DNA of 64,000 nt from positions 1,984,001 to 2,048,000 of the forward strand of contig NZ_OU659204.1 in NCBI RefSeq assembly GCF_915403165.1, given 5' to 3'. Positions 1 through 21,406 of this stretch are shown here, piece after piece. The first letter of the stretch is position 1. Each line of letters starts with the position of its first letter. The DNA is from Providencia alcalifaciens. Its GTDB lineage: Bacteria > Pseudomonadota > Gammaproteobacteria > Enterobacterales > Enterobacteriaceae. Below the pieces are notes generated by a model, which saw only the letters and a program-made list of their open reading frames with translations, was not told where the DNA came from and did no database searches. Position numbers and translations under genes: made by a program.

Positions 1-405
1 AAATTTTTATGTGATGACCATTTAGTTATTTTCGCACCACCATCCAATGATTTGAATAATCACAGCATCTCTTCATTAAACCAAATTGGAAACCATGATT
101 TTATTGGACTTTCTCAAGGCAATGCATTGCAGGATTATATTGACCATCATGCACTGAGCGAAGGAGTTTCATTTAATTACCGAATGCGTTTAGCAACGAT
201 GGACGCGGTGATGCAGTTAGTGAGTGAAGGGCTTGGCTATGCCATTTTACCGCAACAAGTCATATCACGCTTTATCGGAATATATCCAGGAAATATCATT
301 CCTTTATCTGGTGAATGGGCAAAGCGCAAATTATACATTTGCACCCGAAGATTTGATGAATTACCGAGTTATATGGATGAGTTTGTTAAGTTTTTACTTG
401 AATAA
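1..405 (+). CDS. LysR-family transcriptional regulator, C-terminal part (5' end outside window)
   Basis: The reading frame is open from the first base of the window, so the gene starts upstream and only the last 134 codons are visible. They look like the second half of a LysR effector-binding domain: the stretch around DAVMQLVSEGLGYAILP is the usual helix and strand that close the ligand pocket, followed by a short C-terminal helix rich in acidic and aromatic residues. The DNA-binding half is missing, so the target cannot be guessed. The stop codon overlaps the end of the convergent permease gene by 12 bp, so the two genes share their 3' ends. A TTG inside the frame at 52 is not a credible start because the domain begins before it. 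Confidence 0.8.
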   Translation, partial: KFLCDDHLVIFAPPSNDLNNHSISSLNQIGNHDFIGLSQGNALQDYIDHHALSEGVSFNYRMRLATMDAVMQLVSEGLGYAILPQQVISRFIGIYPGNIIPLSGEWAKRKLYICTRRFDELPSYMDEFVKFLLE

Positions 406-1110
406 CATGTAAATACCTAAAACTATTAATCCTAAGAAAAAACAGCGCCTAAATATTTTTTCACTGATTAAATTTCTACAATATTGCCCCACATACATGC
501 CAATAATCGCAGGAATAAGTGCTATTGACGATATGTAATAATCTATAGTCTCTCTGTTATTCTCTCTGAATAATAATATGGCCAATGCAATTGTTGACGC
601 GGTAAACGCGAGGCCTAGTGTTTGTATTAATTCATTTTTATTAAGATTCAGCGATTGTAAATAAGGAACAGCAGGGATCACAAAAACCCCCGTGGCTGCG
701 GTAATAACTCCAGTCATATAACCAATTAGTGGGGATAACCATCGTTCATTTTTACCCGATGTTGACGATTTAGGGAGGAATATGGCCACTAATCCATAAA
801 TGATTAATATCAGACCCAGTGCAGGAAATACCCACTCTGATGCTGAACTCAATTTTGGTAATGGGCTATAAACAGTGCCAATAAAAATAGCGATAATAAA
901 TAAGTAAAATCGTCGAATTAAGTTTAAAAATTTACCACCGATCATAAGCTGCCATATATTGGTGACGAAAGATGGAATAATTAGAATGCTTGCTGCTACA
1001 GCAGGCTCCATGACCGTTGTTAATAAGCCCATCGATAATGTTGGCAAGCCTAGTCCAATAACTCCTTTAACAAATCCCGCCAAAAAGAAGATCAATAAAA
1101 TTAACGCCAT
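394..1110 (-). CDS. TauE/SafE-family membrane permease
   Basis: A 238-residue, strongly hydrophobic protein with about seven to eight predicted membrane segments. The N-terminal FLAGFVKGVIGLGLPTLS is the typical first TauE/SafE repeat signature (hydrophobic run, Gly-rich turn, GLG). A second repeat begins around residue 125 (PLIGYMTGVITAATGVFVIP). The family exports small sulfur-containing or carboxylate anions across the inner membrane; the substrate here is unknown. It converges with the LysR gene to the left and diverges from the ABM/ACT/ArsR operon to the right, with about 220 bp of promoter space between. TauE-type genes are often controlled by a neighbouring LysR protein, which is possible here but not shown. 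Confidence 0.82.
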   Translation of the reverse strand: MALILLIFFLAGFVKGVIGLGLPTLSMGLLTTVMEPAVAASILIIPSFVTNIWQLMIGGKFLNLIRRFYLFIIAIFIGTVYSPLPKLSSASEWVFPALGLILIIYGLVAIFLPKSSTSGKNERWLSPLIGYMTGVITAATGVFVIPAVPYLQSLNLNKNELIQTLGLAFTASTIALAILLFRENNRETIDYYISSIALIPAIIGMYVGQYCRNLISEKIFRRCFFLGLIVLGIYMLFK

Positions 1111-1331
1111 ATTGGATTTACCTTTGAGTTGATAAGTATTGCTTAAAGGGTAATCAATTAAATAAAAACAACCTATACGGATTATTTTTAGGGGGGCTTC
1201 GGAAAATACAGAGTAAGGTTTTCAGCAAGTTACAGCTACTATTGTCATCAATGTTGGTCATTTCGATAGTTATCGAAGTGACATGAATACGAGATTGATA
1301 ACCTATTTAGCGGTTAACAAGGAGACATGAA

Positions 1332-1646
1332 ATGATCGCAGTGATATTTGAAGCACGTATTGCACCAAATAAACAGGAACGCTATTTATCTTTAGCGGAA
1401 AAGTTAAAGCCATTATTGAGCGATATTGAAGGGTTTATTTCAATCGAGCGTTTTCAAAGTTTATCGCACGAAGGCAAATTATTGTCACTGTCATGGTGGG
1501 AAAGTGAGTCCGCTGTTTTGCAATGGAAACAGAATATTTTGCACATGAAGGCTCAGCAAGAAGGTCGAGAAACGATTTTTGATTTTTACAAAATCAGTAT
1601 TGTTAATATGGTTCGAGAATATTCATTTGAAAAGGATAAGCAATAA
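1332..1646 (+). CDS. antibiotic biosynthesis monooxygenase (ABM) fold protein
   Basis: A 104-residue protein with the dimeric ferredoxin-like ABM fold pattern: an N-terminal strand ([12 protein letters not shown]), a helix containing [14 protein letters not shown], then [10 protein letters not shown], a strand with [17 protein letters not shown] and a helix with H at the start of the [10 protein letters not shown] segment. Such proteins are small cofactor-free or haem/quinone-handling oxygenases or simply ligand binders, so no reaction can be named. It is the first gene of a tight three-gene unit: its TAA overlaps the next ATG by one base. An AGGAG-like ribosome site (AAGGAGAC) sits just before the ATG. 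Confidence 0.75.
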
Positions 1647-2059
1647 TGTTTGATATTCATGTGGTTTTAGATGGTAAACCAGGGCAATTAGCGCTGTTAG
1701 GAAAAACATTAGGTAATAACAATGTAGGCTTGGAAGGTGGTGGGGTATTTACCGTCGATGGAAAAAGCCACGCTCATTTTCTTGTCGAGGATGGGAACAA
1801 AGCGAAAACTGTTTTAGAATCTATGGGATTATCTGTTGAAATTAACAAGCCGATTATCCGTAAATTAAGACAGGAAAAACCCGGAGAGTTAGGGGAAATA
1901 GCGCAAATATTAGCGGATCATGATGTAAATATTTTAGTGCAATACAGCGATCATGCTAATCAACTGATACTGATTACAGATAAAACGGATATTGCAGAAT
2001 TAGTCACAAGCCCTTGGGCCGTAGAGAATTTTTTGAATGACCATAAAAATGAAGGATAA
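1646..2059 (+). CDS. ACT-domain-like protein, unknown function
   Basis: A 137-residue protein with two ACT-like halves. The first is [22 protein letters not shown] followed by a strand and a [15 protein letters not shown] helix. The second is [22 protein letters not shown], the classic ACT signature (strand, PGEL turn, helix, D-x-N-I strand). ACT domains bind amino acids or other small ligands and often regulate enzymes. There is no catalytic domain, so it is probably a stand-alone sensor or a partner of its neighbours. It is translationally coupled to the ABM gene upstream (one-base overlap) and overlaps the ArsR-type gene downstream by 11 or 23 bases, depending on the start used. Confidence 0.68.
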
Positions 2060-2726
2060 ACCCACATTAGAATCCTCGATAGCCGCGATTGGAGCGGCTA
2101 TTTCTGATAGTTCGAGGGTTAAAATTCTTTGTGCTTTAATGGATGGAAGGGCGTGGACAGCAATGGAACTGGGCGTTGTCGCGGAAATTTCCGCATCAAC
2201 AACGAGTAGCCACTTAACAAAGTTATTGGATAACCAACTGATTACGGTTATTTCACAAGGCAAATATCGCTATTTTCAAATTGCGAATGAAGGCGTTGCC
2301 AATATCATTGAAAGTATTATGGGACTATCTGCAAGCAATGTATCCCAAGCCAAAATAACGACACCGCCTAACTTAAGAAAATCTCGAACTTGTTATAACC
2401 ATTTAGCCGGTGAAGTGGCTGTTCATATTTTTGATGCACTTAATCAGAAAGAATGGATAACTGAGAATGGATCTGAGATTACGTTATTGGGTATTGAGAG
2501 CTTTAGAACAATGGGGCTTAATTTTAATTTCAAGAATTCAACAAAGGTTTGTTGTCCATGTTTAGATTGGAGTGAACGACGTTTTCATTTAGGCGGACAA
2601 GTTGGTACCGCTTTTCTTGCGCATGCTGAAAAACAAGAGTGGCTGTTTCGACATGCTGGTTATAGAGAAATCACCATCAGTGAAAAAGGGCATAGGGCGT
2701 TTGCTAAATACTTTGGTATCAATTAA
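2037..2726 (+). CDS. ArsR-family winged-helix transcriptional regulator
   Basis: A 229-residue protein. Residues about 15-95 form an ArsR/SmtB-type winged helix: [21 protein letters not shown], then the recognition helix [18 protein letters not shown] and a wing [10 protein letters not shown]. The remaining 130 residues are a C-terminal domain seen in the longer ArsR-like proteins; it contains a CCPCLDW motif that could bind metal or sense redox state, which is inference. It overlaps the ACT gene and is most simply the regulator of its own operon. A second ATG at 2049 (MKDKPT) would shorten the overlap to 11 bp and may be the true start; neither has a strong ribosome site. Confidence 0.8.
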
Positions 2727-2960
2727 CTGGCCAACATAGTCTAATTGCAAAATAAATAGGGATCTTGTCTTAACGAATATGTATTCCAATCATTTAAATC
2801 AATCCATAAGTTTTTCTATTAGCTACTAAAAATTATCATCATTTGTGAACCCTACAAAAGAAAATATAATCATGAGTAAAAATAAGGCCCTACATAAATT
2901 AAATTTCAACTTATGCTGAAATAAACTCATTATATAAATATTGACCATCAAAGGTTTACT

Positions 2961-3818
2961 ATGAATTTACGATTTAAAACATTTGCCGCATTGGTTTTAA
3001 CCATGCCTATTGTATCCTCTGCTTTTGCTTTAACTTTACAGGATCAAGTTAAACAATACGAAAAAGAGGGTTGGAAGGTTGGATTGTCAATTCTATTTTC
3101 AGATGATAAAACGATTTCTATAAATGGAAACCAACGCTTTCCTTTGGATAGCACAGTTAAATCAATTGCTTGCGCTAATGTTCTGGCAAAGGTTGATGCA
3201 AAGAAACTTTCATTAAGCCATTCTATGATAGTAACTGAAAAAAATATTGTGACATATTCGCCAGTTGCTAAAGATTATATGAATAAGCCGTTTACGCTTG
3301 AACAAGCTTGTAAAGCTGCTAATGAATACAGTGATAATACAGCCGCTAATTTTGCTATTTTTTCGGGTGGGGGACCAGAGGCTCTGACGGCATTTATGAG
3401 AGCTATAGGAGATACGGTTACTCGTTCTGACCGATATGAGCCAGAATTGACAGTCAATCCCGAGGGTGATTTGCGAGACACAACGACTCCCGATGCAATG
3501 AGCAAGAGTATCAAGAAAATTTTGACTGGCGAAGTTCTCAGTAATTCATCAAAAGAACAATTGAAAGAATGGATGGTCAATAATAAAGTCGCTGATAATA
3601 TGCTTAGAGCGTCTCTTCCTAAAGAATGGAAAATCGCCGATAGATCAGGTGCAAGTGAATATGGCGTCAGAGGGATAACGTCGATGGTATGGTCAAATAA
3701 TCATGATCCTGTATTTATCAGCATCTATGTAAGAAAAGCGGATACTTCTTTGGATGAACGCTCAGAAGTGATTCGTATTTTAGGTTCTCATCTATTTGAC
3801 GAATACCTTAGTCACTAA
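2961..3818 (+). CDS. class A beta-lactamase, CARB/PSE-like (RSG subgroup)
   Basis: A 285-residue periplasmic serine beta-lactamase. A signal peptide of about 23 residues ends ...SSAFA. The active-site motifs are complete and correctly spaced: S64-T-V-K67 (Ambler 70-73), S124-D-N126 (130-132), E160 (E166) and R228-S-G230 (234-236). Arg in place of the usual Lys at 234 defines the carbenicillinase (CARB/PSE) branch, and the neighbourhoods NGNQRFPL, VTYSP, GDLRDTTTP, WMVNN and IADRSGA match CARB enzymes. Cysteines at 71 and 117 correspond to the 77-123 disulfide. The omega loop reads EPELT, so Ambler position 170, normally Asn and a ligand of the deacylating water, is Thr. No AmpR-type LysR gene adjoins it. 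Ribosome site AAAGG precedes the ATG. Substrate range cannot be predicted from sequence alone. Confidence 0.9.
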   Translation: MNLRFKTFAALVLTMPIVSSAFALTLQDQVKQYEKEGWKVGLSILFSDDKTISINGNQRFPLDSTVKSIACANVLAKVDAKKLSLSHSMIVTEKNIVTYSPVAKDYMNKPFTLEQACKAANEYSDNTAANFAIFSGGGPEALTAFMRAIGDTVTRSDRYEPELTVNPEGDLRDTTTPDAMSKSIKKILTGEVLSNSSKEQLKEWMVNNKVADNMLRASLPKEWKIADRSGASEYGVRGITSMVWSNNHDPVFISIYVRKADTSLDERSEVIRILGSHLFDEYLSH

Positions 3819-3861
3819 AATTATATTGGAATCATTTGTTGTTTAGAGTAGTAAAAGGTTG

Positions 3862-3882
3862 GGGTTCTATGGAGGAACCCCG
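3862..3882. terminator. hairpin after the beta-lactamase gene
   Basis: A perfect 7-bp stem (GGGGTTC and GAACCCC) with a 7-base loop, 44 bp past the beta-lactamase stop. There is no clean T-run on the plus strand, so it is a weak terminator at best or an mRNA-stabilising hairpin. Confidence 0.4.
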
Positions 3883-3929
3883 AAGTAGCAGTGAGATAGA
3901 TATAAGACTGTTATCTGCACATTAATTCT

Positions 3930-3957
3930 ATTTAACATAATATGCATTATGCGAACC
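3930..3957 (-). other. dif: dif site (XerC/XerD chromosome dimer resolution)
   Basis: Read on the minus strand, the site has an 11-bp XerC arm GGTTCGCATAA, a 6-bp centre TGCATA and an 11-bp XerD arm TTATGTTAAAT. E. coli dif has GGTGCGCATAA, TGTATA and TTATGTTAAAT. The XerD arm is identical, the XerC arm differs at one base (allowed by the proteobacterial consensus), and the centre differs at one base and keeps the required 6-bp length. The site lies in non-coding DNA in a terminus region that also holds tus and two Ter sites, which fits the expected location. XerC and XerD resolve chromosome dimers here, activated by FtsK. Confidence 0.9.
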
Positions 3958-3988
3958 CAAGTATGGAATGAAGAAATACAGCGTTTTG
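3953..3988. repeat. dif-adjacent repeat unit, copy beside intact dif
   Basis: The 36 bp that begin inside the XerC arm of dif and extend rightward match 4803-4838 at 28 of 36 positions with no gap. With the second copy it brackets the PAAR remnant and its terminator. Confidence 0.55.
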
Positions 3989-4094
3989 GCTGGTTAATCG
4001 TGTTGGTTCGTTTATCGTTGAAACTGCCTTTTCTATGACCAATTAAGCTTTTAGTCGTTGCTTCATGTCCACTAGTTAAAGTTCCATGATACTT

Positions 4095-4131
4095 AAAAAA
4101 GCTCGTCTACTTTATCGGCGAACGAGCTTCA
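4095..4131 (-). terminator. rho-independent terminator for the PAAR locus
   Basis: On the minus strand, AAGCTCGT pairs with ACGAGCTT across a 15-base loop and is followed by a run of Ts. It lies about 70 bp beyond the stop of the minus-strand PAAR/membrane remnant. Confidence 0.6.
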
Positions 4132-4200
4132 GTTTTCTATGAGGCTTTGGAGAGCCTCCTTACATGTCATACGGCATAAATCCTATCTCACCCTTAATTA

Positions 4201-4455
4201 TTACCGTATTTTTTTGTGAATGATAAATATCAGCGCAAGAACAATAGCAAAACCATAGTATGCAAATTCCATTGAGCTATTATGATCTGACAGTAATTGC
4301 GCAGCAAAATTAGTCCACCTTGCTTTTGAGGTATCACCTATTCCAATAATTCTTATTTCAGTTGAAAAATTTAAATTAAAAATTAAATCGAAAAAAAATA
4401 AGCCTACGTAATATATAACTATTAATAAGCAAGTAAGACCCCATCTAATAAATGA
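4201..4455 (-). pseudogene. remnant of a small two-helix membrane protein, in frame after the broken PAAR gene
   Basis: Directly after the PAAR stop codon the same frame stays open for 84 codons. It reads as two membrane segments (about WGLTCLLIVIYYVGLFFFDLIF and EFAYYGFAIVLALIFIIHK) around a short polar loop containing GIGDTSKARW. The frame has no ATG, GTG or TTG near its beginning and no ribosome site; the only nearby ATG is out of frame and soon hits a stop. It looks like the 3' part of another gene joined to the PAAR 5' part by a deletion. Small membrane proteins downstream of PAAR genes are often immunity proteins of type VI effectors, which is a possible but unproven origin. I do not recognise the family. 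Confidence 0.5.
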
Positions 4456-4632
4456 TTATACGTTGCTGATCCCGCCAAGTATCTTGTAAGTGCCAGAGTG
4501 TTTCCCACACGTGACCATGTCACCTTCACGAGCAGCAGACACGCCGTAAAACAAAAACGTATTGTCGCCCGTTAAGATTTGACCGCCGCAGGTTGTTCGG
4601 TCTCCGACCCGTAAAAAATAGCCTATCGCCAT
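4456..4632 (-). pseudogene. truncated PAAR-domain protein (type VI secretion spike tip)
   Basis: Fifty-eight codons beginning MAIGYFLRVGDRTTCGG and containing AAREGDMVTCGKHSG, the N-terminal and central parts of a PAAR domain. PAAR proteins cap the VgrG spike of type VI secretion systems and often carry a toxin. Full-length family members run about 90 residues for the PAAR fold alone; here it stops at ...GGISNV with a TAA, losing the last strands and the cysteine-containing end. An AAGGATG ribosome site sits 5-6 bases before the ATG, so it could still be translated. No vgrG or other type VI gene is present in the window. It is too short for the usual domain, so it is most likely inactive. Confidence 0.75.
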
Positions 4633-4773
4633 TATGCCATCCTTGTTTTCATTGATTTAATCAGAATTGAGATAATAATCTAACCTAAGTGAAATGTAAT
4701 GAAAACCCTGTCGGCTATGATGATAAATTAGGAAGGGTCTTGATCTCACCTCAACGTGAGTCCGTCCTCGATT

Positions 4774-4838
4774 TTTTAACATAGAGATGTGTCTATTTAT
4801 TCGAACCTAATTATGAAATAAAGAAATCCGGCATTCTG
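4774..4838 (-). repeat. degenerate dif-like site plus flank duplicated from the dif region
   Basis: The plus strand reads TTTTAACATAG, then 12 bases, then TTATTCGAACC. The first element matches the dif XerD arm at 9 of 11 positions and the second matches the local XerC arm at 10 of 11. The two are separated by 12 rather than 6 bp. The 36 bp starting at 4803 are 28/36 identical, without gaps, to the 36 bp starting at 3953 beside true dif. The two copies are in the same orientation about 850 bp apart. This looks like a decayed duplicate of the dif region, and the doubled centre should prevent normal Xer synapsis. Confidence 0.6.
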
Positions 4839-4940
4839 ATCCCCTCAAAAGTTATCGACCTGCACTTGACGCCAAACAAAAATATGCCACCGTATTACTT
4901 CTATAATGACTAGCTTATTTACTCATATAGATGTGGTCAC

Positions 4941-6062
4941 ATGGTTAACAAACTGAATCTTAACTGGCCTGAATTTTTAGAAAAATACTGGCAGAAAAAA
5001 CCCGTTGTATTGAAAAATGCATTTCCTGATTTTGTCGACCCTATCACTCCAGATGAACTGGCCGGCTTGGCGATGGAACCGGAAGTTGACAGCCGCCTAG
5101 TCAGCTTTATTGATAGCAAATGGGAAGCGAGCCATGGCCCGTTTGAGGACTACAGCGAATTAGGTGAAAAAGGATGGTCGCTGTTAGTGCAAGCCGTGAA
5201 CCATTGGCATATGCCTGCCGCTGAACTGGTGAAACCGTTCCGCGTACTGCCTGAATGGCGTCTTGATGACTTGATGATCTCCTATTCGGTGCCTGGCGGT
5301 GGTGTCGGACCACATATTGATAACTATGATGTTTTTATCATCCAAGGAATGGGCCGCCGCCGCTGGCGAGTGGGCGACGCCCTTCCCATGCGGCAATTTT
5401 GCGCACACCCGGCACTATTGCATGTCGATCCATTTGAGCCGATTATTGATGTAGAAATGGCTCCGGGAGATATTCTGTATATTCCGCCGGGATTCCCTCA
5501 CGATGGTTTCACCTTCGAAGATACCATGAACTATTCTGTCGGCTTTCGTGGCCCAACCGGGCGCGATTTGCTGAGCAGTTTTGCAGACTATGCACTGGAA
5601 CAGGATTTGGGCGGAATAAATTATGGCGATCCTGACCTGAAAGTCAGTAAAAATTCAGGAACCATGGAACCTCATGAGGTTGAACGCCTACGAGCCATGA
5701 TGATTGAAATGGTCAACAAGCCCGGTGATTTTGAACAGTGGCTAGGCCGTTTTGCAACCACCCCTCGCCATGAGCTGGATATTGCCCTTGCGGAACCGCC
5801 GTATCAGCCGGAAGAAGTACTGAGCGCTCTAAATGCCGGTGAAAAATTGATACGACTAAGCGGGCTGCGAGTCATGCGTATCGGCGATCGTTTCTTTGTT
5901 AATTCAGATGGTTGGAATACCACAGAAATAAAGGGTGCCGACGCATTGTGCCAGCTTACGGAAGCCGGAATAAATGAACTCGGTGAAGCACTAGAAAACC
6001 CAATTTTTGTCGCTGAGTTGACCGAATTTATCAATCAGGGATATTGGTATTTCGAAGAGTAA
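4941..6062 (+). CDS. roxA: ribosomal protein uL16 3-hydroxylase (JmjC/cupin oxygenase)
   Basis: A 373-residue Fe(II)/2-oxoglutarate oxygenase orthologous to E. coli RoxA (YcfD), which hydroxylates an arginine of ribosomal protein L16. The cupin fold carries the iron ligands H125-x-D127 in GPHIDNYD and the distal His in IPPGFPHDGF, all at the E. coli positions. The N-terminal segment (LNWPEFLEKYWQKKP) is the usual family opening, and the C-terminal winged-helix region for dimerisation is complete. It is a monocistronic gene with its own terminator, lying just to the right of the dif/PAAR accessory patch, and so marks where conserved gene order begins. Confidence 0.93.
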   Translation: MVNKLNLNWPEFLEKYWQKKPVVLKNAFPDFVDPITPDELAGLAMEPEVDSRLVSFIDSKWEASHGPFEDYSELGEKGWSLLVQAVNHWHMPAAELVKPFRVLPEWRLDDLMISYSVPGGGVGPHIDNYDVFIIQGMGRRRWRVGDALPMRQFCAHPALLHVDPFEPIIDVEMAPGDILYIPPGFPHDGFTFEDTMNYSVGFRGPTGRDLLSSFADYALEQDLGGINYGDPDLKVSKNSGTMEPHEVERLRAMMIEMVNKPGDFEQWLGRFATTPRHELDIALAEPPYQPEEVLSALNAGEKLIRLSGLRVMRIGDRFFVNSDGWNTTEIKGADALCQLTEAGINELGEALENPIFVAELTEFINQGYWYFEE

Positions 6063-6080
6063 GTCACTTTAGCCTAACAA

Positions 6081-6110
6081 GATAAAACACCTGCTGACGG
6101 GTGTTTTATC
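6081..6110 (+). terminator. terminator after roxA
   Basis: An 11-bp stem (GATAAAACACC with GGGTGTTTTATC) around a 7-base loop, 19 bp after the roxA stop. The stem itself supplies the T-run. Confidence 0.7.
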
Positions 6111-6327
6111 TCAACATCCCCTTCGCACCTCAAGCTATCTTCGATTTATCGCCAAACTACTGAAATATTCAATCGATTGCAACAATCATAGTCCCGACAA
6201 AATAAATGAGGTCGCAGTCTACGGAGCTCCTCTAATTTAAGCTTATTCTGTTATCTCAACTGATTAAATTCTAATATGATTAAAAACTATCAATAAAACT
6301 AATCCATCCAGCTAATGGAGTATCAAT

Positions 6328-7956
6328 ATGTTTGTCACTCGCAAATTCACCAAAGGAATTTTATTTGTATCGGCGTTAGCGTCATGGCAAGCATTTGCTG
6401 AATCAGCGCCGCTCTCACAGCCTCTTAAGCTCAATCAAGCCACGATTTTTTTACGTGGTGCCGAGTTAACAAATAGCGCTACTGTCAATTTACCGCAAGG
6501 CGAAAGTAAGCTGATTTTCACCAATGTTGCTGACCACCTTGATCAAAAAAGCCTTTCAATTAGCTTAGATAATGAAGATATTCTGATCCGCTCAATTGAC
6601 GTGCAAACCGTGGCAGTGGAACCTGTCTATACGGGTGAAGTGGCAAATTTAAAATCGCAGATAGACGCGATAACCAAACAAATTTCAGAGCTTAATATCA
6701 AAATAAAAGTGGGTGATGACCAACTCGCTTTACTGAAAGATCAGCGTTTTTTTGGTGAAACAACGACATTATCCCTTGAGCAGTCCGCATCCAAATTGGA
6801 ATTTATTCGCAAGCAAATGTCTGCGATATTGAGTGAAAACTTAGCGTATCAGCAGCAGATTGATGAATTGACAGAGAAACAAGCATTATTGCAGGCAAAA
6901 TTTGACGGTATTCTTCCCGATAATATTGGAGAGCAGACACAAATTGTGTTGACGGTTGATACTCCCAAAAGTTTGAGTGCCAACATGCAAATCTCATATG
7001 TTACTCCCGATGCGGGTTGGTCTCCAAGTTATGATATTCGTGCTAAAGATATTGATAAACCAGTCAATATTACCTATAAAGCTGACGTTATTCAAAATAC
7101 CGGCATGGACTGGGACAAAGTTAAACTCACCCTTTCCTCTGCCAACCCAACACGCAATATCACCCCGCCATTTTTAACACCATGGTTATTGTCGGTTTAT
7201 GACCAATATAATCAAGGCTATATGAGCGGAAAAATGTCCGCAGCCATGGATATGGAGGTGGCAGCACCTGCGCCAGTAGCGGAAATTTCAGCATCCAAAA
7301 AACGCAGCCCGGGCATGGCAAACTATGTGTCGACCAACACCAACGGCGTGAATCTCAGTTACAGCATCGAATTGCCTTTTAGCTTAGCCTCTACCCCTAA
7401 AGCAAAATCTATTACCATTAAACAAGCAGATGTTGATGCAAAATATCGTTATACATCAACGCCAAAAATGGCTGAGGAAGTCTATTTGCAAGCTCAAATT
7501 GATGACTGGGATGCACTGAACTTACTGAATGGCCCTGCTAATATTTACTTTATGAACAGCTACGTGGGTGATTTTTATGTGAATTCAGGGCAATTGACTG
7601 AAACTCTCGATATCCCATTTGGTGTGGATGATAACATTCAAATTTCTCGTGTAAATAATGCGGGAATGCGTAAAAAACCAACCTTTATGGGTTCCACCGT
7701 TGAGCAAAAAGAAAGCTTCTTAATTAAGGTACGTAATACGCGGAAAAATGATATTAAACTGTCAGTCTATGACCAACTCCCGACGAGTAAAGATACCGAT
7801 ATTAAAGTGCTTAACCCCGAATATAAAGGCGGAAAACTGGATGAAACAGAGAATAAAATTGAATGGGATTTAACGCTGAAACCTCAAGAAACTGTCGAAT
7901 TGCCTTTAAGTTATACGCTGAAATACCCTAAAAATAAGCAGATTAATGGATTATAA
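6328..7956 (+). CDS. MuiA-family protein (DUF4139), exported
   Basis: A 542-residue protein with a signal peptide ending near ...SWQAFA (about residue 24). Then comes an N-terminal beta domain (LNQATIFLRGAELTNSATVNLPQGESKLIF) of the DUF4140 type, a coiled-coil stretch about 105-185 (KSQIDAITKQISELNIKIKV and following), and a long DUF4139 domain to the end, with PDAGWSPSYDIRA and WDKVKLTLSSANP as family signatures. The family was named for an effect on mucoid exopolysaccharide in other bacteria; its biochemical activity is not known. It stands alone between roxA and ydfG with its own hairpin. The C-terminus lacks an anchor, so it is probably periplasmic. Confidence 0.8.
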   Translation: MFVTRKFTKGILFVSALASWQAFAESAPLSQPLKLNQATIFLRGAELTNSATVNLPQGESKLIFTNVADHLDQKSLSISLDNEDILIRSIDVQTVAVEPVYTGEVANLKSQIDAITKQISELNIKIKVGDDQLALLKDQRFFGETTTLSLEQSASKLEFIRKQMSAILSENLAYQQQIDELTEKQALLQAKFDGILPDNIGEQTQIVLTVDTPKSLSANMQISYVTPDAGWSPSYDIRAKDIDKPVNITYKADVIQNTGMDWDKVKLTLSSANPTRNITPPFLTPWLLSVYDQYNQGYMSGKMSAAMDMEVAAPAPVAEISASKKRSPGMANYVSTNTNGVNLSYSIELPFSLASTPKAKSITIKQADVDAKYRYTSTPKMAEEVYLQAQIDDWDALNLLNGPANIYFMNSYVGDFYVNSGQLTETLDIPFGVDDNIQISRVNNAGMRKKPTFMGSTVEQKESFLIKVRNTRKNDIKLSVYDQLPTSKDTDIKVLNPEYKGGKLDETENKIEWDLTLKPQETVELPLSYTLKYPKNKQINGL

Positions 7957-8000
7957 CTGACTAAATAAGTTAATTATTTTATCGGTGTAAAAGAACTAAA

Positions 8001-8026
8001 TAAGGGGCTTGGATGCCCCTTAATAA
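8001..8026 (+). terminator. hairpin after the MuiA-family gene
   Basis: TAAGGGGC pairs with GCCCCTTA around a 6-base loop, 45 bp past the stop; the T-run is poor. Confidence 0.5.
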
Positions 8027-8076
8027 TAAGGTTAGAATGATTCAAAACAAACAACGATAACAACCTGAGGTACCTA

Positions 8077-8823
8077 ATGATTATTCTAGTAACCGGCGCA
8101 ACATCAGGATTTGGTGAAGCTATTGCTCGCAAATTTATTCAGCATAATTTCACTGTGATTGGGACGGGACGCAGAACTGAAAGATTAAATACATTACATC
8201 AAGAATTGGGTGATAAATTTTATCCATTAACTCTGGATGTACAAGACCGAAAAGCCATTCAGCACGCTGTAGCCAATTTGCCCTCCCACTTAAAAAATAT
8301 CGACCTTTTAGTGAATAATGCGGGGCTTGCTTTAGGATTAGAGCCCGCATTTAATGCAAATCCAGACGACTGGGAAACCATGATCAACACAAATACCAAA
8401 GGCTTAGTCAATATGACGTATGAAGTGCTGCAAGGTATGGTGGAAAAAAATCACGGGCACATTATTAATATCGGCTCTACCGCCGCATCTTGGCCATATA
8501 AAGGCGGCAACGTTTACGGTGCAACTAAGGCGTTTGTAAAACAATTTTCTTTAGGATTACGTGCAGATTTAGTGGGCAAAAAAATTCGTGTGACCGATAT
8601 TGAGCCAGGGTTAGTCGGTGGAACTGAGTTTTCAAATGTCCGTTTTAAAGGTGATGATGAAAAAGTCACAAATACCTATAAAGGCGCGGATGCTCTTACT
8701 GCTGAAGATATTGCGGAAACAGTTTACTGGGTGGCAACCCTTCCGGCTCATATGAATGTTAATACACTGGAATTAATGCCGGTGTGCCAAACCTTCGCTG
8801 GTTTAACCGTACATAAACAATAA
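8077..8823 (+). CDS. ydfG: NADP-dependent 3-hydroxy acid / malonic semialdehyde reductase, SDR family
   Basis: A 248-residue classical short-chain dehydrogenase, collinear with E. coli YdfG. The cofactor motif TGATSGFG starts at residue 6, with RR following the second strand for the NADP 2'-phosphate. NNAG lies near residue 85, and the catalytic Ser-Tyr-Lys sits in NIGSTAASWPYKGGNVYGATK. The C-terminal block IEPGLVGGTEFSNVRFKGDD is almost identical to the E. coli enzyme. E. coli YdfG oxidises serine, allo-threonine and related 3-hydroxy acids and reduces malonic semialdehyde. An AACCTGAGG ribosome site precedes the ATG. It is a single-gene unit. Confidence 0.94.
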   Translation: MIILVTGATSGFGEAIARKFIQHNFTVIGTGRRTERLNTLHQELGDKFYPLTLDVQDRKAIQHAVANLPSHLKNIDLLVNNAGLALGLEPAFNANPDDWETMINTNTKGLVNMTYEVLQGMVEKNHGHIINIGSTAASWPYKGGNVYGATKAFVKQFSLGLRADLVGKKIRVTDIEPGLVGGTEFSNVRFKGDDEKVTNTYKGADALTAEDIAETVYWVATLPAHMNVNTLELMPVCQTFAGLTVHKQ

Positions 8824-8913
8824 TAAATTTTCGTACTATTCTATAAAGACGGCATTATTGTTTATTCGCTATACTATGGTTATAGCACGCGTATTGAAAC
8901 CAAAGGAAATTAC

Positions 8914-9285
8914 ATGAGCACGTCACAAAAATTTATCAAAAATGGTCTGGCTGCAATCTGCTTCTGCCTCCCTTTGATGTGGGTTAATGCGGCGCAAGCA
9001 GCTAATACATCATGCGCTGCGGGTAGCACTTGTGTTTCTGTCGGTAATGGTAGTAATGACCCGTTGAATAAGGAACAGGCGCGACAAGATAAAGAACAGT
9101 GGGATGAGACTAAAATGCTCCGTTCTAAAGTTAACCGTCGCACCGAAAAAGAGTTTGATAAGATTGACTCTGCATTTGATGCTAAAGATAAATGTGAGAA
9201 AAGTTTGAATCTTAATGCGTATTGGGAGCCAAATACTCAACGTTGTCTTGATGTTAACTCAGGCCGTCCAATTATTAATCCATAA
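8914..9285 (+). CDS. ynfB: YnfB family (DUF1283/UPF0482) small exported protein
   Basis: A 123-residue protein with an N-terminal signal peptide (hydrophobic core [12 protein letters not shown], cleavage near NAAQA). The mature part ends with the family block [21 protein letters not shown], then [10 protein letters not shown] and [13 protein letters not shown], closely matching E. coli YnfB. The mature domain has four cysteines (two close together near the start, one in DKCEK and one in QRCLD), so disulfides are likely in the periplasm. Function is unknown in all species. The terminator that follows is shared with the convergent bioD2. Confidence 0.88.
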
Positions 9286-9311
9286 TTTATAATAGAATAT
9301 ATCGATAAAAC

Positions 9312-9335
9312 AAAGGGCGCTATTTGCGCCCTTTT
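9312..9335. terminator. bidirectional terminator between ynfB and bioD2
   Basis: AAAGGGCGC pairs with GCGCCCTTT around a 5-base loop, with T on one side and A on the other, serving both convergent genes. Confidence 0.8.
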
Positions 9336-9367
9336 GCTTAGATAATAAATTAAAATCTATATAAAGA

Positions 9368-10045
9368 TCAAAATGCAGGAATCGAAACAAACTCTTGCAG
9401 TTTTTCACCATCTAAATAATGTCCCAACTCTTTTTCTTCAGGACGCAATAAATAAGGAATTTCACCCAATAATGGTGCATTAATATGTTGCTGCATACGC
9501 TGAATAATTTGAGCGTAATGTGCCAAGCCTGGGTTGATTCTATTTGCTAACCAGCCGACTAATGGCAAACCATCAGCTCGAATAGCTTCAGCTGTCAATA
9601 GTGCATGATTGACACACCCATGCTGAATTCCGACGACTAAGATCACGCCAACAGATTGTTTTTTCAGCCAATCGGCATAAAAAGTATTATCATCAAGAAG
9701 ATAACGCCATCCGCCATTGCCTTCGATAACGACGATGTCGCTTTGTTCATGAAGGTGATCTAACCCTTTGTTGATTTTATTAAAATCAATACTGTTTTCA
9801 TGGCTGTAATTATCGCCAAGTCTGACAGGGTTAACTTCATCATACGAGACAAGATCTTGCGAAACACGGTGAATAAGAAGTGCATCCTTATTGCGCTTCC
9901 CTTCAGGTGTATCGATACATTGATCTGCAATAGGTTTGTACCCTACTGCTTTAATACCTTGATTATTAAGTGCTTGTAATATTGCTAGTGTCGATACCGT
10001 CTTCCCGACATCTGTATCTGTCCCGGTAATAAATAGATTGTTCAT
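9368..10045 (-). CDS. bioD2: dethiobiotin synthetase 2 (BioD2/YnfK)
   Basis: A 225-residue P-loop ATPase with GTDTDVGKT at residues 7-15, KPIADQC in place of the usual KPVxSG block, and the EGNGGWRYLL loop near residue 110 that corresponds to the EGAGG motif of BioD. BioD closes the ureido ring of dethiobiotin from diaminopelargonate, CO2 and ATP. The gene lies next to mlc as ynfK does in E. coli, apart from the bio operon, and is the second paralogue. Whether it is the main enzyme or a spare depends on whether a bioD exists elsewhere, which this window cannot show. Confidence 0.88.
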   Translation of the reverse strand: MNNLFITGTDTDVGKTVSTLAILQALNNQGIKAVGYKPIADQCIDTPEGKRNKDALLIHRVSQDLVSYDEVNPVRLGDNYSHENSIDFNKINKGLDHLHEQSDIVVIEGNGGWRYLLDDNTFYADWLKKQSVGVILVVGIQHGCVNHALLTAEAIRADGLPLVGWLANRINPGLAHYAQIIQRMQQHINAPLLGEIPYLLRPEEKELGHYLDGEKLQEFVSIPAF

Positions 10046-10186
10046 GGTTGTTCTATCCTGAAGTGACAGACTAAGGTCAGCAAAATGCTATAAAAATGAT
10101 ATGAATTCAGTTTATGGGAATGGGGAAATGATAAGTTTGCGTTAGCTCAATTTTGTGTAAGATAATGAGAAGTTTATCAAATTGTA

Positions 10187-11398
10187 TTAGCCTTGCAGTA
10201 ATTGCAACAACAGTGAACCATCATAAAGTGCATTTTGAATTAATGCTGTTTCACTTTCCTTAATTGAAATTATTGATTTATCAAGTATTAACTTATTACA
10301 GTAAAGTGGATTCCCATGTAATGAGATAAAATATTGTAGGCGAGTAAGCCAGTAATTTTGCTCATTAGTTAAAGGCGAATTAACTAAAATCAATTCTGTT
10401 CCAAATAAATTAATCATCATTGCTAATGGATAAGCAAGTCGTTTAGCTGTTGTATCGAGTAATAAAACACATAGTGGGTCATTTTCTATTGCACCTCGAC
10501 TAATTGCGTTAATATCGACACTTCCTTTATGCAAAATAGATTCAGGATAACCTGCAAGTAATTCTCTTGCTTGCTGAACAATCGCAGGAATGGATATTTT
10601 AGTTTCTAAGCAGCCCTTTCCTCCACAATAACAAGATTGTGGTCTTTCTGAATCAGTTTGAGTATGTGCAAATAATATAGGCTGACGTGTTATTGAATCC
10701 AAAGAATAGCCGTGATTCAGCACCGCGATATTAACCACATCTTGAATTTGTAGATAAATAATATTTTTTTGTGGTCGAGACTCTGAATATTTGAGGTGGT
10801 CGCCGATAGCCAGAGCATTAACAGGCGGATGAAGATAGACGGGCAGACCTGTTTTTTCTGTCAGCATCTCGCCGATAGCCAGTTGGTGAACATGGTAGTC
10901 AGGCAACCTATAAATAACCCCAGAATAAGAGTCTAAGAGGCCATCTAATAAGATACTGATCGCCGTGACTCTTTCTAAGTGAGCTCCGTTCTCTTCGAAA
11001 AACAGGCCAATCAGTTCCGATAAACGATCACTAAATTGTTGATTACCTTTGACATCAAAAGGATATCGTTGTTCTGTGAGGGGTTTAGCATTAATTTCTT
11101 TTAACGAAATAACAGCATGTTGCTGTTCAATTCGAATGGCTAAAAATTGCCAGCCTTCACTTTCAATGACTAACCCAACAGCTGGGCGTCCCCTTAACCC
11201 TAATACTGGAAATTCACGTTCCTGTATCAAGTGAGCATCCATCAATTCACGGGTAATTTTGGTGATACTCGCAGGGGCCAATTGAGACTGTTTTGATAAC
11301 GCAATACGGGAAATAGGACCATGCTGTGCAATAATTCGGTACACAAGCCCAGTATTTAATTGCTTTATTTGGTCGGTATTTCCCGTTTGGTTTATCAT
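10187..11398 (-). CDS. mlc: Mlc-type ROK-family sugar regulator, diverged
   Basis: A 403-residue ROK repressor in the position of E. coli mlc (dgsA), between ynfK and ynfL. The N-terminal winged helix is well conserved (DQIKQLNTGLVYRII and SQLAPASITKITREL). The structural zinc site keeps all four ligands: His in FAHTQ and three Cys in CYCGGKGC. The C-terminus ALYDGSLLLQLLQG is nearly identical to Mlc. In contrast the glycine-rich ROK phosphate loop is eroded: where E. coli has DHNVGAGVI, this protein has QDVVNIAVL, and the HDISAW segment is PPVNAL. Mlc represses glucose-PTS genes and is sequestered by dephosphorylated EIICB-Glc; DNA binding should persist, but the effector side may differ. 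Confidence 0.86.
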   Translation of the reverse strand: MINQTGNTDQIKQLNTGLVYRIIAQHGPISRIALSKQSQLAPASITKITRELMDAHLIQEREFPVLGLRGRPAVGLVIESEGWQFLAIRIEQQHAVISLKEINAKPLTEQRYPFDVKGNQQFSDRLSELIGLFFEENGAHLERVTAISILLDGLLDSYSGVIYRLPDYHVHQLAIGEMLTEKTGLPVYLHPPVNALAIGDHLKYSESRPQKNIIYLQIQDVVNIAVLNHGYSLDSITRQPILFAHTQTDSERPQSCYCGGKGCLETKISIPAIVQQARELLAGYPESILHKGSVDINAISRGAIENDPLCVLLLDTTAKRLAYPLAMMINLFGTELILVNSPLTNEQNYWLTRLQYFISLHGNPLYCNKLILDKSIISIKESETALIQNALYDGSLLLQLLQG

Positions 11399-11534
11399 CT
11401 TAACACTCAGAAATCGTTGTAAATTATGATTGATTATGCCTGATATAAATGAAAACTCGGCTACATTTACATATAAAACGTGATGAAAATCTCGTTAATC
11501 ATTTCAAATTCTACGCCTTATACGCCCACAATAC

Positions 11535-12440
11535 CTATATACCCACAATATTATGCAGCAGTAACTCAGTCAGTTTTTTAGCCGCAGCAGGTGGCGTTCG
11601 TCGCGTATTGTAGACCAACCAGACTTCTGAAGTAGCTTGAATATTCGCGAGTTTTAGATACCTCACGCCGTCAATCTTCATTCGTGTAAAGGATTCGGTG
11701 ATGATAGAAATTCCCATTCCAGCAGAAACTAAGCCTAGAATGGTCATAGCTTCGCCTGCTTCTTGGGAAATCGTAGGAACCACCCCTTTGGAGGCTAATA
11801 ATTGATTGATCTCATCATATAGTGCCGTTCCCACTTCTCGCTCAAAGAAAACTAACGGATAAGCCGCAAGCTGCTTAATATCGATGCCACTTTCTTCGAA
11901 AGCCAGTAAAGGATGCCCTTCATAAACCGCAACCATGAAAGGCTCTCTAAATAATAATTGATAGTCCAATTGTTCAGGTAATATTGTATTGCGCATGATG
12001 CCAATGTCTATGCGCCCGGTCACTAAAGGCGGGATTTGCTGCTTCGTATTCATTTGATGCATATGAATAGAAACATCGGGGTACGCTTCTCGGTATTGGC
12101 GCAGGCTCATGGTGACTTTGTGCATAAATGGCGTTGTTGACGTAAAACCAATAGACAGTTCACCAAGTTCCCCTTTTTCCATCCGAGCCGCCTTGGTCGC
12201 TGCAGCGTCGACCTGCCCTAAAATTTGGTAAGCTTCTTTTAGAAACATGGTACCAGCTGGGGTTAAGGCGACATTGCGGTTATTGCGTTCTAATAATTTA
12301 GCATTAACCATTTCTTCAAGAGCTTGAATTTGCAGGCTTAATGGCGGTTGAGACATGTGCAAGCGCTCAGCCGCACGCCCAAAATGTAACTCTTCGGCAA
12401 CAGCAATAAAATAACGTAGGTGGCGTAATTCTATATTCAT
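11535..12440 (-). CDS. ynfL: LysR-family transcriptional regulator YnfL
   Basis: A 301-residue LysR protein. The N-terminal winged helix is MNIELRHLRYFIAVAEELHF with recognition region RLHMSQPPLSLQIQALEE; a linker helix and a complete two-lobed effector domain follow, from about residue 90 to the end. It is divergently transcribed from the MFS gene ynfM, with about 125 bp between the starts, the same arrangement as ynfL-ynfM in E. coli. By the usual LysR logic it probably regulates ynfM from that spacer and represses itself. The inducer is unknown. Confidence 0.9.
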   Translation of the reverse strand: MNIELRHLRYFIAVAEELHFGRAAERLHMSQPPLSLQIQALEEMVNAKLLERNNRNVALTPAGTMFLKEAYQILGQVDAAATKAARMEKGELGELSIGFTSTTPFMHKVTMSLRQYREAYPDVSIHMHQMNTKQQIPPLVTGRIDIGIMRNTILPEQLDYQLLFREPFMVAVYEGHPLLAFEESGIDIKQLAAYPLVFFEREVGTALYDEINQLLASKGVVPTISQEAGEAMTILGLVSAGMGISIITESFTRMKIDGVRYLKLANIQATSEVWLVYNTRRTPPAAAKKLTELLLHNIVGI

Positions 12441-12566
12441 GACCCAATGCCCACTGAATTGATATATTTAAAGTATCATTATCTATAATTAATATATTAG
12501 ACAAAAAAATAGAAAGTTTCTATTCTTTGATCGAAATCAAGTCCGTTTAGTCGTCAAGGAATTTAC

Positions 12567-13829
12567 ATGGAACAGCAGTCAAATAGCCTCTCAACGAGCC
12601 AATCTCTACAAGGAAAACAAACCAAAACCTTGACCAATACAGATCCGAAAAAACATTATATTCAACGGGACGATGCACTGTATTTGCGTGTAACTCTGTC
12701 ATTCTTTACTGTGGGTTTTGCAACATTTGCGTTGCTGTACTTTGTACAACCTATTTTGCCAATGTTGTCAGCGGACTTTAATATTTCTCCGGCGACTGCC
12801 AGTTTATCACTCTCTTTAAGTACGGGATTGATGGCATTGGGGCTACTGATCACCGGCCCTATTTCCGATGCAATTGGTCGTAAAAATGTGATGGTCATTT
12901 CCCTGACTTGTGCTGCACTTTTTACATTAATGAGCTCAATAATGGAAAGTTGGCAAGGGATTTTGATCGCCCGTGCATTAGTGGGGTTATCTCTTAGCGG
13001 TGTAGCGGCCGTCGCCATGACCTATTTGAGCGAAGAAATTCATCCGAGCTATGTTGCTCTGTCAATGGGCTTATATATCAGTGGTAACTCTATTGGGGGA
13101 ATGAGCGGACGTTTAATGACCGGGGTAATTGCCGACTTTTATTCATGGCGAGTTGCGGTTGTTATTTTAGGTTCATTGGCATTGTTGGCGGCGATTGGAT
13201 TTTGGCGTTTATTACCACCGTCCCAACACTTTCGTGCAAGCTCTCTTAAACCTAAAAACCTTTGGGTTAACTTACATTTACACCTACGTGATACGGGGTT
13301 GCCCTGGTTATTTGTTGAGGGTTTCATCTTGATGGGCGGTTTCGTCACCATGTATAACTACATTGGATACCGCTTACTTGAATCGCCTTATAATTTTAGT
13401 CAGTCTATAGTGGGATTTTTATCTGTTATTTATTTAACAGGAACTTACAGTGCGACTAAAACAGGGAGCTTAACCCAGAAACATGGCTTTGGGCGAATTT
13501 TAATTGCTGCCATTGCGATGATGTTAATCGGCGTCATTTTGACGTTACACAGCAATATTTGGGTCATTTTACTAGGCATGACAGTATTGACCGCAGGATT
13601 CTTCGCCGGTCATTCCGTTGCAAGTAGCTGGGTCGGACGCCGCGCTAAAAGGGCAAGAGGACAAGCATCTTCACTCTATTTGTTTAGCTACTATGCGGGT
13701 TCCAGTATTGCCGGTACATTGGGCGGCTTTTTCTGGTCGGCATATGGTTGGAATGGCGTGGCGTTATTTATTGCGGCTCTTCTACTGGCAGGTGTAGGTA
13801 TCGCTTATAAGTTAAAAACAAAATGTTAG
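12567..13829 (+). CDS. ynfM: MFS transporter YnfM
   Basis: A 420-residue major facilitator superfamily protein with 12 predicted membrane segments. An N-terminal cytoplasmic tail of about 45 residues precedes the first helix (FFTVGFATFALLYFVQPILP). The MFS motif A loop GPISDAIGRKNVM follows helix 2, and a second copy, TKTGSLTQKHGFGR, is in the C-terminal half. It is orthologous to E. coli YnfM, a proton-driven efflux carrier implicated in export of small organics. The partner regulator ynfL is divergent. The start is fixed by the AAGGAAT ribosome site eight bases upstream. Confidence 0.9.
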   Translation: MEQQSNSLSTSQSLQGKQTKTLTNTDPKKHYIQRDDALYLRVTLSFFTVGFATFALLYFVQPILPMLSADFNISPATASLSLSLSTGLMALGLLITGPISDAIGRKNVMVISLTCAALFTLMSSIMESWQGILIARALVGLSLSGVAAVAMTYLSEEIHPSYVALSMGLYISGNSIGGMSGRLMTGVIADFYSWRVAVVILGSLALLAAIGFWRLLPPSQHFRASSLKPKNLWVNLHLHLRDTGLPWLFVEGFILMGGFVTMYNYIGYRLLESPYNFSQSIVGFLSVIYLTGTYSATKTGSLTQKHGFGRILIAAIAMMLIGVILTLHSNIWVILLGMTVLTAGFFAGHSVASSWVGRRAKRARGQASSLYLFSYYAGSSIAGTLGGFFWSAYGWNGVALFIAALLLAGVGIAYKLKTKC

Positions 13830-13943
13830 TAGCTTATAAATTACCAAGTAATCCAATAAGTTAACTGGTACTAAAGATTAGAATTCACATCCTCATCATG
13901 GTTAATAGAAAATATACAAATTAATCAATGATGAGGATCTTCA

Positions 13944-14510
13944 ATGAAAAGAATATTATCTTTATTACTCTGCTATAGCGTCTTTGCCCTGCCTCATGGC
14001 TATATCGAGTATCCCGCAAGCCGAGCCTACCTGTGTCAAGTACAAACCAATAAAAACTGTGGTGCTATTCAGTATGAACCTCAATCTGTAGAAGGGTTGA
14101 AAGGCTTCCCGCAAAAAGGCCCTGAGGACGGTAAAATTGCCAGTGCAGGTATTGCGGCTTTTTCGCCTATCGATGTTCAGCTGCCATTTCGTTGGACTCG
14201 AGTGTTAATAGAAAAACCTAATTTTGATTTGTTCTGGCGTTTAACAAAAATCCATAAAACAACTAAATGGGAATATTTTATTACACGAAAAGATTGGAAC
14301 CCAAGTGAACCACTAACCCGATCGCAATTTGAATTAACACCATTTTGCAAATACGAAAAAGTAGAGACGCCGGCGAGTTTAGTACAACACAATTGCAGGC
14401 TCCCCCAAAATTATCAAGGCTACCATGTTGTTTTAGGTGTTTGGACCATAGATGATACGGCCAATGCATTTTATCAAGTTATTGATATAGAAGTAGATTA
14501 TAAGAAATAA
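13944..14510 (+). CDS. AA10 lytic polysaccharide monooxygenase (CBP21-like chitin-active type)
   Basis: A 188-residue secreted copper enzyme, single domain, very similar to Serratia CBP21. A short signal peptide (MKRILSLLLCYSVFALP) leads to His18, which must become the N-terminus to form the histidine brace. The second copper His lies in KIHKTTKWEYF, and the axial pair Asp and Phe are in DTANAFYQVID. CBP21 landmarks SVEGLKGFPQKGP, ITRKDWNPS and LTPFCKYE are present. The enzyme cleaves chitin-like chains oxidatively and can also act as an adhesin or virulence factor in pathogens. The residue before the required cleavage point is Pro, unusual for signal peptidase I; an upstream ribosome site GATGAGGATCTTC fixes the start. 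Confidence 0.92.
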   Translation: MKRILSLLLCYSVFALPHGYIEYPASRAYLCQVQTNKNCGAIQYEPQSVEGLKGFPQKGPEDGKIASAGIAAFSPIDVQLPFRWTRVLIEKPNFDLFWRLTKIHKTTKWEYFITRKDWNPSEPLTRSQFELTPFCKYEKVETPASLVQHNCRLPQNYQGYHVVLGVWTIDDTANAFYQVIDIEVDYKK

Positions 14511-14528
14511 CAGCAAGAAAAATCCATG

Positions 14529-14563
14529 AAGGGATAGTATAATAACCTACCTCGCTATCCCTT
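14529..14563 (+). terminator. hairpin after the LPMO gene
   Basis: AAGGGATAG pairs with CTATCCCTT, with a 17-base loop and a short AATTT tail, 20 bp past the stop. Confidence 0.55.
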
Positions 14564-14626
14564 AATTTCCTGATTAAGCTAGTTGATAAACACGGATGTT
14601 AATGTTAGTTTTGTTTTATAAACAAC

Positions 14627-14643
14627 AGAATGTTGTAACTAAA
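14627..14643 (+). other. ter: Ter site in the tus promoter region
   Basis: AGAATGTTGTAACTAAA matches the Ter consensus AGNATGTTGTAACTAA at every fixed position, including the G at the blocking end. It ends 20 bp before the tus start codon, as TerB does in E. coli, where Tus bound at TerB also represses tus. As oriented it should stop forks moving toward higher coordinates, that is forks coming from the dif side. Confidence 0.93.
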
Positions 14644-14663
14644 TATGGGATTGAATAAATCAA

Positions 14664-15569: not shown

Positions 15570-15603
15570 AAAAAGCCCCTGCTCTATTTCTAGTACAGGG
15601 GCT
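15567..15603 (-). terminator. terminator of fumC (shared hairpin with tus)
   Basis: AGCCCCTG pairs with CAGGGGCT around a 14-base loop; on the minus strand it is followed by a run of seven Ts, so it ends fumC transcription and overlaps the tus stop. Confidence 0.8.
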
Positions 15604-15629
15604 GAAAACCTTATCTTAGATAAAGATAA

Positions 15630-17027: not shown

Positions 17028-17205
17028 TACTAGCTCCTTAGGTACATATTCAGAATAATTAATTTTAGAATCATCTGCTTGCAGGTAAGCAAATAACCGA
17101 GCAGTATAATGCCACAAATTGAATTTCAATTATGAGACTTGGTCGAGCTTATTGTGCTGTAGTAAAAAGGAAATTAGTTGATTTTTGCAAAAAGAGAGTT
17201 TTGAT

Positions 17206-18381: not shown

Positions 18382-18490
18382 GTCGTATTCTGTATTTAGC
18401 CGTTGGTACACACAGCCAAACGGGTAATAAAAACTTATATTATTTTTACATAAGTACGTTTTGTACGTACTGAAAGGATGGATGTTGATA

Positions 18491-21389: not shown

Positions 21390-21406
21390 AGTATGTTGTA
21401 ACTAAA
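21390..21406 (+). other. ter: second Ter site, between add and the YfeH-like gene
   Basis: AGTATGTTGTAACTAAA is a full match to the Ter consensus and identical over this core to E. coli TerB. It is in the same orientation as the site before tus, so it is a backup block for forks coming from the dif side. It lies in the 168-bp gap between two convergent genes. Confidence 0.93.

Follow-up and report, generated by a model that had tools for sequence, protein, structure and literature searches.

The chromosomal dif site of Providencia alcalifaciens lies at positions 3930-3957 of the window, the 64,000-nucleotide stretch of DNA analysed here (C1:1984001-2048000). As a dif site the 28-mer is ordinary. 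It is bordered, however, on its XerC side by a flank of approximately 42 bp that is conserved and phased to dif in Enterobacterales. From its position we infer that this flank is a docking element of dif for Topo IV. The whole account, in which the chromosomal dif carries a ~42-bp flank as a seat for Topo IV, mobile elements bring their own copies of it and the window retains a scar of one such entry, has in our judgement slightly better than an even chance of being right. The features on which it draws are as follows.

2961-3818, plus strand: class A beta-lactamase gene, on the XerD side of dif
3930-3957, minus strand: chromosomal dif (XerC arm 3957-3947, centre 3946-3941, XerD arm 3940-3930)
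3958-3999, plus strand: conserved XerC-side flank, +1 to +42 counted outward, with block A at +12 to +30 (3969-3987) and block B at +33 to +42 (3990-3999)
4941-6062, plus strand: roxA (JmjC_2, ROXA-like_wH)
5380-5387, minus strand: first reversed KOPS past dif
14628-14641, plus strand: Ter-like site directly ahead of tus, one mismatch
14664-15569, plus strand: tus (PF05472), starting 10.7 kb from dif
21391-21404, plus strand: Ter-like site, exact core
49468, minus strand: Ter-like site, two mismatches

Read on the minus strand from 3957 to 3930, dif is GGTTCGCATAA-TGCATA-TTATGTTAAAT, 28 bp in the order XerC arm, centre and XerD arm. It shares with E. coli dif its length, the 11-6-11 layout, an identical XerD arm and a place at the skew and KOPS switch. 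It differs, as the original prediction had it, by one base in the XerC arm and one in the centre, and also in its neighbour, which is hipA in E. coli and roxA here. The 28-mer matches once in the window and in none of 100 shuffles. Moreover, a search of the whole 3.93-Mb source genome, allowing up to three mismatches, recovered no dif match beyond 3930-3957. A chance match, or a better dif elsewhere, is therefore rejected, and the prediction that this is the chromosomal dif, in non-coding DNA and unlikely to have arisen by chance, is borne out by a sole genomic match that sits at the GC-skew and KOPS switch, between the end of the beta-lactamase gene (3818) and the start of roxA (4941). The enzymology of dimer resolution by Xer, FtsK and KOPS is established knowledge; the identity of this dif rests on sequence and position. 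XerC and XerD at 3930-3957, activated by FtsK coming along KOPS, would resolve chromosome dimers to monomers.

Over the 424 kb analysed, the CUSUM change point in GC skew falls at C1:1988020, 90 bp from dif (C1:1987930). The plain cumulative maximum, which is less sharp than CUSUM, falls at 2004078, 16 kb from dif. KOPS (GGGNAGGG) polarity reverses at dif over the same 424 kb, with seven plus and no minus sites to the left versus one plus and nine minus to the right; the looser RGNAGGG gives 74 plus and 10 minus to the left versus 21 plus and 82 minus to the right. Among the genome-wide KOPS matches listed (100 of 188), 62 plus and 10 minus sites fall between 77 kb and dif and one plus and 20 minus between dif and 2361 kb, a count that omits five minus sites below 77 kb. 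A scan with the E. coli Ter core (chance mean 0.38) found the three Ter-like sites given above, and the predicted distance of about 11 kb from dif to tus and its Ter site agrees with the 10.7 kb to tus and the Ter-like site at 14628 beside it. Taken together, the single match in the genome, one match per congener and the coincident switch of skew and KOPS strongly support the claim that dif fixes the terminus of this chromosome; the switch is at dif itself and no better match lies at a switch elsewhere.

Exactly one dif was found in 23 of 24 Providencia genomes, the source included, with the centre TGCATA in 19, TACATA in three and TGTGTA in one; in other genera of the family it is mostly TGTATA. 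The remaining genome (G006) was rejected as a congener that lacks dif. Its contig C6 begins inside dif and its contig C3 ends near an attachment site, so that a full match is missing because the assembly is broken inside dif. The roxA gene, whose closest named relatives are from Providencia, is the neighbour of dif in several Providencia besides the window, and also in Proteus and Morganella loci. The gap between the two measures 983 bp in the window. Seven other Providencia regions have roxA within 10 kb, six with a gap of 252-612 bp and the seventh, G002, with one of 8819 bp. The beta-lactamase on the other side scores above the NF033103 cut-off and scores best against the CARB/PSE/RTG model, while staying under the cut-off of that model. 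In two other species (L116 and L123) this gene occupies the same position next to dif, which makes it a neighbour common to these species and not a recent Xer insertion. TauE/ABM/ArsR-type genes also lie on the XerD side. The original prediction held dif to be an integration target that explains the unusual genes around it. The first part is supported in this lineage by the elements in relatives and a probable scar in the window described below. Integration at dif may not explain all the unusual genes nearby; a search of 20 kb around dif gave no second dif-like site. An Rfam search of window positions 1-20000 returned no known RNA at gathering scores.

Twenty-two Providencia flanks were compared, leaving out G002 and taking for G019 and G020 the flank that lies behind the IS. 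Between species, identity over the first 45 bp of the XerC side is 80-88%, declining to 0.61 at +46 to +60 and to 0.28-0.38 further out; on the XerD side it is 0.46, then 0.35, then approximately 0.3. Other Enterobacteriaceae sensu GTDB have a phased XerC-side consensus as well, seen over 89 flanks. To obtain these, 90 of 95 dif matches in the family were taken (the five left unread include G000 and G023, treated among Providencia) and 89 of the 90 loci were kept on the XerC side. For the matrix, 31 of the 89 were set aside as possibly IS-derived, a conservative cut that took out many ordinary-looking flanks, leaving 58 clean flanks and 45 non-redundant ones. An earlier set had removed 12 of the 89 as IS-like, leaving 77, and a smaller alignment dropped one of 30 flanks as too short. 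The 45 non-redundant flanks give the consensus AAnGTAAnnnTAGGnGAATTCTGgnGTTTTnnGgtcAtnnTT and 15.70 bits over 60 columns, compared with at most 1.93 bits in 1000 register shuffles. The same genomes sum to -0.08 bits on the XerD side, where a weak signal is confined to the first seven bases (best A at +5, 0.78 bits). Conservation fades beyond +42.

The window flank scores 13.8 against a 99% off-register limit of 3.0. Leave-one-out scoring puts 48 of the 58 clean flanks above this limit and 10 below, and all 20 Providencia flanks, which lie outside the training set, pass it. Four E. coli strains, among them MG1655 (dif at 1590750-1590777), have a flank that reaches at least the 99.97th percentile, beside the neighbour gene hipA; the second conserved block, +31 to +42 of MG1655, reads GCGGTCATGATT. 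A loose regular expression for the motif matches 27/58 flanks versus 0/58 at a control offset, and a strict one matched none of 77 flanks. Part of the flank is missing from about +27 in G022 (L104, about 10042-10056). The flank is not a promoter or terminator by our scans, in which the respective consensus sequences scored no better in 3700-5100 than in shuffles, and these candidates were rejected.

The open-licence literature yielded nothing on point for conserved dif flanks, Providencia dif or its phages, and one survey reports that across Proteobacteria the sequence outside the 28-mer is highly variable (PMC2731167). With the earlier matrix two Morganella flanks pass the limit and four of four Proteus flanks fail it. 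A single motif for the whole order is rejected, because the matrix built on Enterobacteriaceae has no in-register match among the other families taken together, where the XerC side gives 2.99 bits (54 flanks) versus 6.17 bits on the XerD side (60 flanks). In family f8 (L327-L330, L337-L351), which has small genomes and which we take to be Pasteurellaceae, 13 of 19 flanks share by eye a different conserved XerC-side sequence. It spans about 60 bp and has, again by eye, a GAAAACT-like core one base further out. Mean identity in f8 over +1 to +60 is 0.49-0.55 on the XerC side versus 0.29-0.40 on the XerD side.

In E. coli 28 bp are enough for dimer resolution, a reaction that therefore cannot require the flank. 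Within the E. coli chromosome, Topo IV cleavage is most enriched next to dif (PMC4865107). Two of its sites, 33 and 38 bp from the XerC box, are exceptionally strong and unlike the Topo IV consensus (PMC10117906). Deletion of the XerC box abolishes cleavage and deletion of the XerD box has a weak effect (PMC10117906, PMC4865107). The hot spot thus lies on the same side of dif, and at the same distance, as block B; the sections of these two papers available to us differ in that they report cleavage and its need for XerC and describe no conserved flank. The flank and its extent were computed before they were compared with the published cleavage positions; that Topo IV cuts at dif was already known. 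The agreement in side, extent and place is our main argument for docking, in which the flank at 3958-3999 would seat Topo IV beside XerC to unlink two finished chromosomes.

Several points count against docking. Topo IV binding at dif has been reported not to be sequence-dependent. Cleavage disappears when xerD, too, is deleted or when the chromosome is linear, and it is weaker when dif is moved by 300 kb or put on a plasmid (PMC4865107). Topo IV may simply be drawn by the XerCD complex (PMC10117906). To the sequence-independent binding, the need for a circular chromosome and the reduced cleavage at displaced or plasmid-borne dif must be added the genomes without the motif. The flank could instead serve XerC, or another host protein, as an enlarged site for binding or assembly, acting in dimer resolution or its timing. 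It does lie on the XerC side, where the plasmid sites cer and psi keep their accessory sequences (PMC11724359). Those sequences are approximately 200 bp long, however, bind other proteins (ArgR or ArcA with PepA) and belong to plasmid sites (PMC11724359), and a dif with a 6-bp centre has been argued to need no accessory elements (PMC2731167). We consider this role improbable, and keep to Topo IV docking as the preferred function of the flank.

Mobile elements that enter at dif bear directly on how the flank is maintained. Two relatives, G008 and G017, each carry two tandem CTX-type filamentous prophages at dif, spaced by 8865 and 10060 bp (G008 and G017); those of G008 have Zot, Rep_trans, secretin and G3P domains, and Zot was found in G017 too. 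Their attachment region consists of a short-centre site followed by an inverted long-centre site, and single-stranded folding of the inverted sites gives z scores of -4.1 (L115), -4.9 (L026) and -5.1 (L115, other strand). They are therefore like CTXphi in their tandem arrangement at dif and in a folded attP built of a short-centre and an inverted long-centre site. CTXphi attP has centres of 12 bp and 5-7 bp, 90 bp apart (PMC4246890), whereas the long-centre site of the Providencia prophages has a 9-bp centre. A further difference from CTX-type inoviruses is that these prophages carry in approximately 57 bp of dif flank. In G017 the copy after dif is the same as the copy between the prophages, and the host copy past the array shares its first 57 bases and then diverges. 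In G008 the copy after dif again equals that between the prophages, 50 of 58 flank bases are the same in the host copy past the array, and the displaced host XerC arm is unlike the arm now at dif. These junctions show that dif receives a new XerC arm and a new flank from the phage. Filamentous phages entering at dif swap the host XerC arm and flank for their own copy.

With up to two mismatches allowed, 5 of 24 Providencia genomes have the short-centre pattern. The family sample has it in 3 of 392 genomes, and one viral contig matches it exactly. Phage records gave no match to dif with its XerC-side flank and five short matches to dif with its XerD-side flank. Separately, the large lytic coliphages rV5 and Av-05 (L335, L336) carry dif-like 28-mers in stretches that have no annotated genes.

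A second class of element reaches the same place. An IS1202/ISNCY transposase lies at dif in G002, G019 and G020, which hold the only full copies in the 24 Providencia genomes; a fourth match, partial and 54% identical, is in G013, away from dif. The G002 copy matches NF033594, and the transposases of G002 and G019 are 96% and 97% identical to that of G020. A 5-bp repeat at the XerC arm is clear in G020 and one base short in G019, and the right end is lost in G002. The G002 element (L110, 10141-18310) carries a PRTase-CE protein, a reverse transcriptase, a UvrD-type helicase and an OLD-like nuclease. On their Pfam domains this cargo looks defence-like, the first two being retron-like and the last two Gabija-like. 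The G020 element (L127, 11586-15392) carries a 1268-aa CHAT-domain protein. IS1202-family "dif hunters" have been described in Acinetobacter, in a paper whose main text makes no mention of Providencia (PMC10132070). The elements here resemble them in the NF033594 transposase and, in G020, the 5-bp target repeat at the XerC arm, and differ in their host, Providencia rather than Acinetobacter, and in carrying further genes (PMC10132070).

The ends of these elements are relevant to the flank itself. Among the 89 flanks from other genera, four start with the same IS end and four with a second IS-like end, the comparison covering the ends only. The left ends of one IS1202 lineage score at the 99.81-99.97th percentile in register with the flank matrix (L191, L196, L259, L260, L110, L127), a range that also takes in L224, which has no IS terminus; L126, one base out of register, has the same score when counted from its own first base. 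The IS1202 right end scores lower (97.8th percentile) and the ends of the second IS lineage (L194, L239, L241, L256) reach the 90-98th percentile only. A likeness as good as that of the left end was reached by 39 of 20000 letter shuffles, for this one lineage. As far as its letters go, the left end of one IS1202 lineage thus resembles the dif flank in register, which is suggestive only. Phages that restore the XerC arm and flank would leave dif complete after insertion, and an IS end resembling the flank hints at the same.

It follows that the flank may have no function of its own: elements that integrate at dif, both phages and IS, would carry it and rewrite the host copy, and so mimic conservation. 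Phages do swap the host XerC arm and flank, one IS lineage has a similar end, and insertions at dif are common in Providencia. However, the phage short-centre site is present in only 3/392 genomes of the family versus the motif in 48/58 clean flanks, and E. coli, far from Providencia, has the flank beside a different gene, hipA. Moreover, the register of the flank to dif is fixed over 45 diverged flanks, and its end falls roughly where Topo IV cuts in E. coli. We regard such mimicry as unlikely, though it carries some weight, and continue to favour a flank that is conserved for docking Topo IV.

The window itself appears to hold the remains of one such entry, between dif and roxA, where all reading frames in 3900-4940 are short. 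L116, the closest uninterrupted relative, served as the reference for aligning the remnant. Its parts are listed below.

4097-4832, no strand: DNA that has no counterpart in L116, where 29 unaligned bases stand in its place; read as an element remnant
4204-4455, minus strand: second piece of a broken PAAR gene, in frame past a stop codon, with membrane-like residues, searched separately
4456-4632, minus strand: first piece of that gene, a 58-aa PAAR-domain frame (PF05488, E 1.1e-11)
4774-4807, minus strand: decayed long-centre attachment site (XerC-like arm 4807-4797, 12-bp centre, XerD-like arm 4784-4774)
4808-4838, plus strand: second, truncated copy of the dif flank (score 10.1, 99.97th percentile)

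The second XerC arm and flank copy (4797-4838) is 79% identical to the first. Thus the far end of the remnant carries a second dif-like half site with flank, which we took as the mark of a CTX-type insertion. The XerD-like arm of the decayed site is of phage type, with the inner base TAACATAG. An equally good XerD-like arm within 5-15 bases was found in 5 of 20000 random 40-mers from the window, and in 7 of 1598 inside the patch, where the overlapping 40-mers include the site itself. In the source genome (G000), a Zot search gave no match and no short-centre site was found at up to two mismatches. Folding of the inverted site pair in the remnant gave z +0.55 and no attP fold. Because an intact attP hairpin is thus absent, we infer rather than observe that window positions 3958-4838 are the old scar of a Xer-type entry followed by turnover.

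Alternatively, 3958-4838 may be a tandem duplication of the dif region or a decayed IS1202-type insertion rather than a phage remnant, and we put the chance of this at not far below one half. Relatives match the window's first flank copy over approximately 139 bp, more than the roughly 57 bp that the phages carry. In addition, G002 has the second XerC arm in common with the window (10/11 bases) and the same flank truncation, yet an IS1202-type element lies between its copies, over 8.8 kb versus 0.85 kb in the window. Against this, the second window site combines the phage-type inner base with a 12-bp centre like that of the CTXphi long-centre attP (PMC4246890), an equally good XerD-like arm is rare by chance (the 5/20000 above), and known left and right IS ends gave no match in 3958-4850 under 5/16 and 7/17 mismatches. 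An old Xer-type entry therefore remains our preferred reading of the scar.

Two further observations concern this region. The broken PAAR gene (T6SS tip) lies 0.5 kb from dif and contains a matS-like 13-mer (4511-4523, one mismatch). An origin of the PAAR gene bound to dif was rejected; its nearest relatives, at up to 86% identity, lie elsewhere in other Providencia genomes. A comparable scar, a decayed attachment-site pair 1.1 kb from dif, is seen in G021 (C1:2281526-2281551, in L128).

In summary, the dif of Enterobacterales may be a composite, in which the 28-bp Xer site is joined on its XerC side to a sequence-specific Topo IV seat of approximately 42 bp that is under selection and restored by unrelated mobile elements. 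We hold this broader proposal tentatively, at somewhat less than even odds. A conserved element at the place of cleavage gives a testable reason why Topo IV cuts there at letters unlike its consensus. Such an element would tie decatenation and dimer resolution together in a single DNA module, and would account for the flank letters found in phages that settle at dif.
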